Shown here: one piece after another, positions 12,589-62,601 of the stretch
How the letters are laid out: the number at the start of each line of letters is the position of its first letter
Numbering within the stretch: the stretch's first letter is position 1
Program-made: the position numbers and the translations under genes
Notes under the pieces: generated by a model
Told to the model about the DNA's origin: nothing
The model's database searches: none
What the model saw: only the letters and a program-made list of their open reading frames with translations
NCBI GenBank assembly: GCA_015066085.1
Contig: SVPA01000002.1
Span: 1-64,000, forward strand
DNA from: Oscillospiraceae bacterium
GTDB taxonomy: Bacteria; Bacillota; Clostridia; Oscillospirales; Acutalibacteraceae
Reading direction: 5' to 3'
DNA: 64,000 bases

Positions 12589-12871
12589 TTCACAGGTTCT
12601 CGTCCTGCCATATACAAAAAAGATATTTTGGATAAGTTTGCGAACAGATTCGAACTCTCGTAAAAATGAAATCCTTGCTGATGCAAGGATGAAATCAGCT
12701 AACGCTGATGAAATCTTCGGCTTTGCCTCAGATGAAATTAAATCCACCCACTCGCCGTCGAGGCGAATTTCATCCAACGAAGTTGGATTTCATCGTCGAA
12801 AACGATTTCACCCACCCGCAAGGGTGGATTTAGTTGAAAACGACAAGTTTCTGTCGAAACTTGTCGTTTTC
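12589..12871 (-). repeat. hairpin-array element downstream of tRNA-Leu (outer copy)
   Basis: many small inverted repeats separated by gaaatc-type spacers; head hairpin AACGACAAGTTTCGACAGAAACTTGTCGTT and tail GAGTTCGAATCTGTTCGCAAA...AAAATATCTTTTTTGTA. Confidence 0.7.
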
Positions 12872-13075: not shown

Positions 13076-13158
13076 TGGTGCGGGTGACAGGACTTGAACC
13101 TGCAAGCACGAGGCACTGGTTCCTAAGACCAGCGTGTCTGCCATTCCACCACACCCGC
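13076..13158 (-). tRNA. tRNA-Leu (anticodon UAG)
   Basis: GCGGGTG acceptor, CTGGT-CTTAGGA-ACCAG anticodon arm, GGTTCAAGTCC T-arm, encoded CCA. Confidence 0.93.
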
Positions 13159-46122: not shown

Positions 46123-46215
46123 TGCCGAAGGCAATATCACTCGGCTTTTAGCCGAATATAACTGCGAAGCAATACAACTCGCCTTTAGGCGAATAAAACT
46201 GAAAAAACAGAAGGC
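46123..46215. repeat. 93-bp hairpin-array repeat, copy 1
   Basis: tgccgaaggcaatatcactcggcttttagccgaatataactgcgaagcaatacaactcgcctttaggcgaataaaactgaaaaaacagaaggc. Confidence 0.9.
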
Positions 46216-46363
46216 GTTCACACTGTATTTTTAATGCTCTTAAGCATTAAAAAACAAACAAAAACAGTGATATTGTGAGACGGACGTCTCACAGTGATAT
46301 TTTTGATAAATCAAAAGTGATATTAAAACCTGCGGTTTTAGTTATATTTTATTCACCTTAAAC

Positions 46364-46456
46364 TGCCGAAGGCAATATCACTCGGCTTTTAGCCGAATAC
46401 AACTGCGAAGCAATACAACTCGCCTTTAGGCGAATAAAACTGAAAAAACAGAAGGC
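46364..46456. repeat. 93-bp hairpin-array repeat, copy 2
   Basis: identical to copy 1 except one t/c difference. Confidence 0.9.
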
Positions 46457-46479
46457 AAACGCCTTCTGTTTTTTCATAC

Positions 46480-46827
46480 CCACTCGGTCTGTAAGCCGGG
46501 TTCTGTACGGAAAATTCCGTGACGGTCATCTATCTCGATTTGCCGTTGCCGACAAACTCCAGCCGCTTTTCGAAACACATCGGGCAAATGTATCGTTTCA
46601 CTTAGCGTTGCATCGGATAGAGTTTACAGACGGGAGATGTCTCCATTCCCGTGGTGAGCTCTTACCTCGCCTTTCCACCCTTACCACAAAAAGTGGCGGT
46701 ATATCTCTGTTGCACTATTCCTAAGGTCACCCTCGGCGGCCGTTAGCCGTTATCCTGCCCTTTGAAGCCCGGACTTTCCTCAGACAGTCGAATAAATCCG
46801 CTGTCCGCAACCGTCCAACCGACTGAG
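46480..46827 (-). ncRNA. rnpB: RNase P RNA
   Basis: minus strand CUCAGUCGGUUGGACGGUUGCGG ... GAGGAAAGUCCGGGCU ... CCUUAGGAAUAGUGC ... ACAGAACCCGGCUUACAGACCGAGU. Confidence 0.93.
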
Positions 46828-62110: not shown

Positions 62111-62185
62111 TGGGGCATCGCCAAGCGGTAAGGCAACGGACTCTGACTCCGTCATTCCTAGGTTCGAATCCTAGTGCCCCAGCCA
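62111..62185 (+). tRNA. tRNA-Gln (anticodon CUG)
   Basis: TGGGGCA/TGCCCCA acceptor, ACGGA-CTCTGAC-TCCGT anticodon arm, GGTTCGAATCC, encoded CCA. Confidence 0.94.
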
Positions 62186-62461
62186 AGAAAAACGACAAGT
62201 TTCGACAGAAACTTGTCGTTTTTCAATGATATCCGTTCTTCCGAGAACGGATGATATATCTTCGATATGATATCCACCTTCGGTGGACGATATATGCCTG
62301 CGGCATATGAAGGAACGGATATTATATCATACTTGCGAAGCAAGTATATCACTCGGCAACGCCGTATATCATATCGTGCAAGCGATATATCATTATTTAT
62401 GCAAGAGTTCGAATTCATACGCAATAATACCGAAAATATCTTTTTTGTAGCCCCCAGCCAA
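62186..62461 (+). repeat. hairpin-array element abutting tRNA-Gln 3' end
   Basis: head AACGACAAGTTTCGACAGAAACTTGTCGTT, about seven small hairpins with gatatat/atatcat spacers, tail GAGTTCGAATTC..ACGCAA..AAAATATCTTTTTTGTA, then GCCCCCAGCCAA resembling the tRNA 3' end. Confidence 0.75.
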
Positions 62462-62500
62462 AAAAACAAAAGCCAACCGTCGCGGTTGGCTTTTGTTTTT
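62460..62500. terminator. strong hairpin terminator
   Basis: aaaaacaaaagccaaccgtcgcggttggcttttgtttttt. Confidence 0.85.
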
Positions 62501-62601
62501 TGTTTGTGGCGTTAATCGGAGGCGAATCGTTTTGCCAAAGGCAAAACGGTCGTCGAAGCAGTCCGAAACGCGCGTTAGCGTTTTGCGGTCATTATGTTGT
62601 A

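Follow-up and report, generated by a model that had tools for sequence, protein, structure and literature searches.

A hairpin cassette behind tRNA-Gln(CUG) as a probable member of a mobile cassette family at tRNA 3' ends in gut Clostridia

Gut-1 (RF01706) was introduced as one of 104 candidate RNAs, was found in the human gut only and was regarded as likely noncoding RNA (Weinberg 2010, PMC2864571). In the main text of that report it is treated solely as a probable noncoding RNA whose known sources are gut metagenomes, and no mention of RF01706 beyond that report was found in the open-access literature searched. Intervening sequences (IVSs) of 23S rRNA are selfish hairpin elements with an open reading frame for the S23 protein, and are subject to horizontal spread (PMC4990558). 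Here, the hairpin-rich sequence that abuts a tRNA-Gln(CUG) gene was examined within a 64-kb window, i.e. the whole stretch of DNA analysed, from an Oscillospiraceae genome. The feature is interpreted, with a probability of roughly three in four, as a non-coding member of a mobile cassette family that inserts at the 3' ends of tRNA and tmRNA genes.

Anatomy of the cassette

The features of the locus, together with a second cassette in the window, are as follows.

62111–62185, + strand: tRNA-Gln(CUG), the target gene (ARAGORN; Rfam tRNA, 62.6 bits), encoded CCA at 62183–62185
62186–62460, + strand: whole cassette, 275 bp, between the tRNA CCA and the native terminator (from the empty site in genome G003 and the 95.9% identical cassette L223)
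62187–62224, + strand: the cassette's own intrinsic terminator, 17-bp arms (from reading of the sequence; an inverted repeat after the CCA is common in sister cassettes)
62224–62298, + strand: Gut-1 unit 1, three hairpins with TGATAT spacers (RF01706, 51.5 bits, above the gathering score)
62292–62322, + strand: centre, where hairpin ATATGCC/GGCATAT precedes GGAACGGATAT, which is another complement to the hairpin-1 arm ATATCCGTTC
62319–62395, − strand: Gut-1 unit 2, inverted relative to unit 1 (RF01706, 43.2 bits, below the gathering score)
62397–62460, + strand: conserved tail, with T-arm-like GAGTTCGAATTC, an A-rich stretch, AATATCTTTTTTGTAG and the tRNA-3'-end-like end CCCCCAGCCA (215 unique copies)
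62450–62461, + strand: right junction, with the tRNA-Gln 3' end copy CCCCAGCCAA (shuffle test across 68 loci)
62461–62515, + strand: native tRNA-Gln terminator, shifted 275 bp downstream (alignment to the G003 terminator, which directly follows the CCA)
12613–12869, − strand: second cassette of the same family, behind a 24-nt copy of a tRNA-Leu end

The initial annotation had described an array of hairpins directly behind the tRNA, and those hairpins are indeed present at that place, forming seven short stems (62231–62252, 62256–62268, 62274–62286, 62292–62308, 62329–62347, 62354–62364 and 62371–62388). The element said to abut the tRNA proved to be one cassette that fills the interval between the CCA and the native terminator, and that is 275 bp long without a coding gene. 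The sequence that had been placed right after the CCA is AG followed by the terminator. The AT-only spacers are likewise present and can be assigned a polarity, TGATAT preceding the first three stems and ATATCA following the last three, because the array consists of two Gut-1 units arranged head to head. The element also has a further part that had not been singled out, namely the conserved tail of approximately 60 bp (GCAAGAGTTCGAATTCATACGC...AATATCTTTTTTGTAGCCCCCAGCCA) between the array and the right edge. The right edge itself reads GCCCCCAGCCAA, of which a 10-mer is common to the tRNA end. Folding of the region gave a z-score of −7.25, with 0 of 100 shuffles as good, and a z-score of −4.5 was obtained for the hairpin array alone. 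The cassette terminator stands in for the displaced native tRNA-Gln terminator, and so strong a terminator immediately behind the CCA makes it less likely that the tRNA and the array are routinely co-transcribed.

The empty site, related cassettes and the right junction

Gene order around rnhA was not conserved among the genomes compared, and provided no route to an empty site, which was located with the tRNA-Gln gene itself as the query. In the congeneric genome G003, tRNA-Gln(CUG) has a closely similar promoter and its CCA runs straight into AAAATAAAACACCAACC-TTTT-GGTTGGTGTTTTATTTTTTGTTTGTGG. The terminator in the window is homologous to this one, having the same core and the same TTTTTTGTTTGTGG end, and is located after the cassette; when positions 62186–62460 are removed in silico, the window and G003 align continuously across the join. 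This cassette-free orthologous locus supplies the presence/absence variation among relatives on which the initial annotation had been made to depend. The cassette is inserted at the 3' end of the tRNA gene, with the tRNA intact. Insertion, together with membership of a widespread family of tRNA-end cassettes, is well supported and considered highly probable. A cassette behind tRNA-Gln(UUG) is similarly present in G008 and absent from the window's own genome (G000) and G002, the downstream sequences at that site not being comparable.

In a comparison of individual cassettes, 268 of the 275 nt of the window cassette matched a cassette in L223 at 95.9% identity. The match breaks off precisely where the final 7 nt begin, and these read CCAGCCA in the window, as in its tRNA, versus ATAGACA in L223. 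The array type seen in the window also occurs behind tRNA-Pro, tmRNA, Leu, Ser, Trp and Glu genes. Cassettes behind different genes can be nearly the same, with 96.2% identity between L003 (family f12, tmRNA) and L071 (f1, tRNA-Ser) and 98.5% between L233 (tRNA-Tyr) and L249 (tRNA-Ser). Two otherwise similar cassettes, L300 and L246, have a different terminator, indicating that left modules are exchangeable.

A 66-nt tail query found matches in 15 of 40 relatives, those weaker than about 1e-5 being possibly due to chance. At E values up to 1e-7 the tail occurs in at least 69 of 396 genomes of the order, a lower bound because two candidates were scored per genome. A scan of named genomes returned at least 117 tail stretches; among the matches listed were Oscillospiraceae, Ruminococcaceae, Clostridiales or Clostridia assemblies and one 'uncultured bacterium', mostly from herbivore gut sources. 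At least 215 unique tails were collected from the fetched Oscillospiraceae and Clostridia sequences, and the genomes compared are mostly metagenome assemblies. A same-strand tRNA or tmRNA gene lies within 600 bp upstream of 85 of the 215, an opposite-strand one was found in a single case, and 25 more tails are 0.6–4 kb behind such a gene; the corresponding value for random positions in the same loci was 2.9%. The 110 tails within 4 kb follow genes of 12 isotypes (Ser, Leu, Gln, Trp, Tyr, Pro, Ala, Val, Thr, Gly, Glu and Arg) and tmRNA. For about half of all tails the available sequence contains no tRNA; many of these tails stop at contig ends (assembly breaks), and others sit behind long cassettes or degraded tRNA ends. 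Among cassettes bounded by a tRNA, 95 of 100 begin flush with the CCA and open with an inverted repeat whose arms are 9 nt or longer, versus 3 of 100 random positions. The usual right end is GTAGCCCATAG(A/C)CA, followed by another terminator or by the next cassette. Both borders are in view for 121 cassettes, the main size class being 255–300 bp, and Gut-1 arrays are present in 50 of the 56 cassettes of that class. Tandem arrangements are also found, in that 20 tails have a tail as left neighbour and locus L171 has three cassettes behind one tRNA-Trp. These cassettes form a large and apparently undescribed family at tRNA 3' ends in gut Clostridia (Oscillospiraceae and relatives), and no matching description of tRNA-anchored cassette arrays was found in the open-access papers searched.

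Several other arrangements at tRNA genes were observed. On the minus strand of the window, positions 13158–12560 comprise tRNA-Leu(UAG), an insertion of a type designated X, and then the cassette with Gut-1 and tail. The X element consists of a terminator, an inverted T-arm-like sequence, a hairpin and the 24-nt copy of the tRNA 3' end; elements resembling it are present at tRNA-Gln UUG in L098 (G002) and downstream of tRNA-Gln CUG in L089 (G003), and the sequence at about 62512–62600, behind the window's tRNA-Gln, may be a decayed example. In L090 (G009:C69) a contig ends inside the tRNA-Gln(CUG) T-loop, as would happen if that genome contained repeats of the tRNA 3' end. Upstream of tRNA-Trp in L064 (G034:C47), a second, disrupted tRNA-Trp copy with approximately 110 bp inserted in the anticodon-arm region adjoins the intact gene.

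The right junction was examined in the 68 tRNA-bounded cassettes with readable right ends, partners being shuffled to derive expectations. The exact last 9 nt of the cassette's own tRNA are found at the right end in three of these loci (Gln in the window, Gln in L213 and Trp in L256), compared with a shuffled mean of approximately 0.2 (0.21; p=0.0003), while a match to the last 5 nt occurs in 7 versus 1.9 expected (p=0.0002). The block of identity with the tRNA spans 10 nt in the window, and loci other than these three have the generic end. The boundary had been proposed to be a copy of the tRNA end, and by the shuffle test the resemblance is locus-specific; most sister cassettes end instead in the generic CCCATAG(A/C)CA. 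The notion that the copy is only the generic ending of the tail was abandoned in view of the same test. Strand exchange inside the last 7–9 nt of the tRNA gene would be the simplest account of the junction, since selection would presumably keep the left copy matched to the tRNA and either version could persist in the right copy.

The 9–11-nt copy could also be viewed as a target-site duplication, a direct 9-nt copy being present at three loci, and the cassette as a non-autonomous, MITE-like element descended from a DDE transposon such as an IS3-like element. An IS3-like element does abut the CCA in L155, L167, L197 and L231, where it is accompanied by cargo, and an rve transposase lies between the tRNA and the cargo in several cassettes. 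However, the duplication is missing at 65 of the 68 loci, the tail is the sole conserved end, left ends differ and terminal inverted repeats are absent. The transposase is, furthermore, absent from most tail-bearing genomes, and the end of this same IS interrupts a tail in L163, as expected of independent insertion. A transposon derivative is therefore considered improbable. The IS3-like element, whose end reads TAAAGACACCATTGAAATCTGAACC, is positioned immediately after the tRNA CCA, with cargo reaching to a tail; the interrupted tail is at G111:C9.

Gut-1 hairpins and their S23 partner

With the covariance-model cut-off for Rfam Gut-1 membership at 50 bits, the plus-strand unit at 62224–62298 qualifies and the inverted half falls under the cut-off. 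The window's genome has 17 Gut-1 half copies, mostly as plus/minus pairs about 20 bp apart, and Gut-1 matches are present in 23 of 40 relative genomes. The spacer word varies by dialect (TGAAAT, TGATAT, GTTATAT or TGATGT). Copies that were read share a layout A-A'...A'', in which the 5' arm of hairpin 1 (A) can meet A' as a hairpin or A'' at the centre; in the window these are ATATCCGTTC, GAACGGAT and GGAACGGATAT. Tail-less Gut-1 arrays remote from tRNAs exist as well (L013, L023, L024, and behind rnpB at 46129–46442), indicating that array and tail are separable modules. The arrays behind rnpB are two near-identical, tail-less, Gut-1-like half arrays on the minus strand (46129–46201 and 46370–46442), 241 bp apart and directly 3' of the RNase P RNA gene (46476–46826).

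Covariation was tested in the close subfamily of the window cassette (10 cassettes, 43 hairpin pairs, 500 shuffles). Standard pairs account for 96.9% of the total, and two-sided changes occur at 9 pairs (23 cells), neither value being reached in any of the 500 shuffles; the conservation of structure anticipated in the initial annotation is borne out by these changes, which show that pairing is kept, whether the hairpins are read as RNA or as DNA. These compensatory changes, the strong folding, the Rfam match and the original description of Gut-1 as a likely noncoding RNA (PMC2864571) are what would be expected if the array were a structured non-coding RNA gene, expressed alone or with the tRNA, and the tRNA linkage a matter of convenient transcription. 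Complete copies that were read, however, are composed of two units head to head, so that a transcript of either strand would contain one unit in the orientation of the Rfam model and another in the opposite orientation. A terminator separates the tRNA from the array, and the copies move, are dispersed and vary in number. Template switching is another process by which stems can stay paired, or perfect stems can change on both sides (PMC8794818). A dedicated RNA gene is accordingly thought very improbable.

BIMEs are composed of head-to-head hairpins with a conserved foot sequence. The arrangement seen here looks similar in both respects, and spread as REP/BIME-like palindromes by a Y1 (RAYT) transposase was considered for this reason. 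Y1 transposases did not accompany the repeats, their occurrence being uncorrelated with Gut-1 numbers over 40 genomes: no Y1 match was found in G027, G035 and G012, which have 34, 30 and 21 Gut-1 copies, respectively, whereas G032 and G011, with five and three Y1 genes, have no Gut-1. RAYT was rejected as the mover, and this reading, already disfavoured, is deemed extremely unlikely.

Relatives of the window cassette carry genes between the left module and the tail, including those for an XRE regulator (L150), N6-methylase and restriction-type proteins (L151, L156), a caspase-like protein (L155), sigma/anti-sigma-like pairs (L167, L248) and acetyltransferase-like proteins, annotations without a Pfam match being from reading of the sequence. 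The most regular cargo module is an S23/IVP-family gene (PF05635, E 1.9e-24). Near-identical S23 genes occupy the leading position in about a dozen tail cassettes, whose tRNAs and second genes differ, and at seven loci (L014 in the window's genome, L007, L198, L305, L287, L239 and L226) an S23 relative immediately follows a Gut-1-like array. In L014 (1501–2064, G000:C23), a tail-less Gut-1 array is followed by an S23/IVP-family gene and a methyltransferase-like gene.

The recurrence of S23/IVP-family genes as partners of Gut-1 arrays and tail cassettes, the window's genome included, raises the prospect of an IVS-like, RNA-level parasite of stable RNA genes, excised by RNase III, carried by the S23 (Avd-like) protein and perhaps involving a reverse transcriptase. 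The targets, tRNA and tmRNA genes, are stable RNA genes, arrays also lie behind rnpB, and IVSs are themselves horizontally spreading hairpin elements with an S23 ORF (PMC4990558). On the other hand, the cassette sits after the RNA gene as opposed to inside it, has its own terminator and, in the window copy, is without an S23 gene. An RNA-level parasite is regarded as unlikely, albeit less so than the other alternatives. In the preferred reading, that of a mobile cassette inserting at tRNA and tmRNA 3' ends, the Gut-1 hairpins would constitute the structural left module of the element, for which an S23/IVP-family protein would be the most likely ligand, the S23 gene being directly behind the hairpins in coding relatives.

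A possible route of movement and comparison with known systems

None of the recombinases compared, from the tyrosine, large serine, IS3-like and Y1 families, was linked to the tail. A dedicated tyrosine recombinase was discounted: a PF00589 survey revealed one near-universal Xer-like enzyme plus scattered others, and the Xer-like enzyme is found in nearly all genomes compared, tail-bearing or not. No complete integrase gene was recognised in the gene-bearing cassettes read, a fragment being present only in L149. A 3' fragment of a large serine recombinase does recur beside tails (L058, L059, L132/L149 and L139). The truncated enzyme was rejected as a helper, as just its C-terminal part occurs near tails, the query matched only one relative genome, G008, and a search of the tail-bearing genomes G034, G059 (86% complete) and G174 (83% complete) found no large serine recombinase. 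An IS3-like transposase was dismissed as the mover, being present in only 4 of 18 genomes. The remaining candidates may include a host enzyme that acts in trans, a helper that is itself absent, or a route assisted by S23. A large serine and a tyrosine recombinase were also observed at L077 (6889–10653, G000:C14), beside the apparent 5' part of a sigK-like gene, this locus possibly being a skin-type element.

A single-site, trans-acting mode of recombination is put forward as a hypothesis, its likelihood being judged a little short of even. The cassette would move as a circle or linear donor with a single site, the tail, which would imitate a tRNA 3' end through a T-loop-like GTTCGAAT and a terminal N-CA. 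The strand exchange envisaged above would put the cassette after the CCA; selection would retain the tRNA version at the left end, and the right end would keep the cassette's CCCATAGACA or, as in the window, the tRNA's own end. Since the tail again ends like a tRNA, a new landing site would be created, leading to arrays, and since the recombinase is not encoded in the cassette it would have to act in trans. An excised circle would be expected to contain the tail-to-terminator junction CCCATAGACA|GAAAACGAC.

Taken as a whole, these features may describe a mobile-cassette class that has not been reported previously, which lands on universal features of tRNA genes (the T-loop and CCA end), brings a replacement terminator and a tail mimicking the tRNA end, forms arrays behind almost any tRNA, shuttles genes (S23/Avd-like, acetyltransferases, methyltransferases, restriction-modification, caspase-like and sigma/anti-sigma) and depends on a trans-acting recombinase; this joint claim is advanced tentatively, as somewhat less than an even proposition. 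It would amount to a new class of element if the enzyme proves new. Gut-1, an orphan Rfam 'sRNA' of 2010, would become half of a mobile element, S23/IVP proteins would be tied to a hairpin element with exchangeable cargo, and a family of hundreds of copies would be available for studying tRNA genes as sites of gene capture without isotype-specific integrases. The findings also serve as a warning that hairpins flanking tRNA genes in gut metagenome-assembled genomes break assemblies and risk being wrongly annotated as ncRNAs.

Each half of the array corresponds to a Gut-1 unit, the left one passing the gathering score; unlike the Rfam entry, the form in the window makes up one half of a head-to-head array that lies in a mobile cassette. 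The S23 IVSs (PMC4990558) are alike in being hairpin elements at stable RNA genes, with an S23/IVP gene in the coding relatives and horizontal spread. The cassette departs from them in its target, the 3' end of tRNA or tmRNA genes, as well as its terminator, conserved tail and varied cargo; the window copy is S23-less and is not an insertion inside 23S rRNA with an S23 ORF, although relatives carry PF05635 genes. MITEs and REP/BIME elements are similarly short, non-coding, hairpin-rich and dispersed, whereas the cassettes have no terminal inverted repeats, one conserved end and, in the tail form, strong tRNA linkage. Integron cassettes resemble this family in having one conserved site at the cassette 3' end, tandem arrays and exchangeable cargo, but here the site is not attC-like (no paired core sites, GTTRRRY / RYYYAAC, occur in 62397–62460), the anchor is a tRNA gene as opposed to attI, and no linked integrase was found among the PF00589 genes surveyed. 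Integrative elements that target tRNA genes, i.e. tyrosine integrase islands and tycheposons, share insertion at the tRNA 3' end, an intact tRNA and, at some loci, a partial tRNA copy at the far end. The cassettes differ in using one tail for the 12 isotypes and tmRNA, in having a short or absent copy, and in being integrase-free, the window element included, and 190–300 bp long in most cases. On balance, the window cassette is rated as a variant of the tRNA-targeting mobile cassettes.
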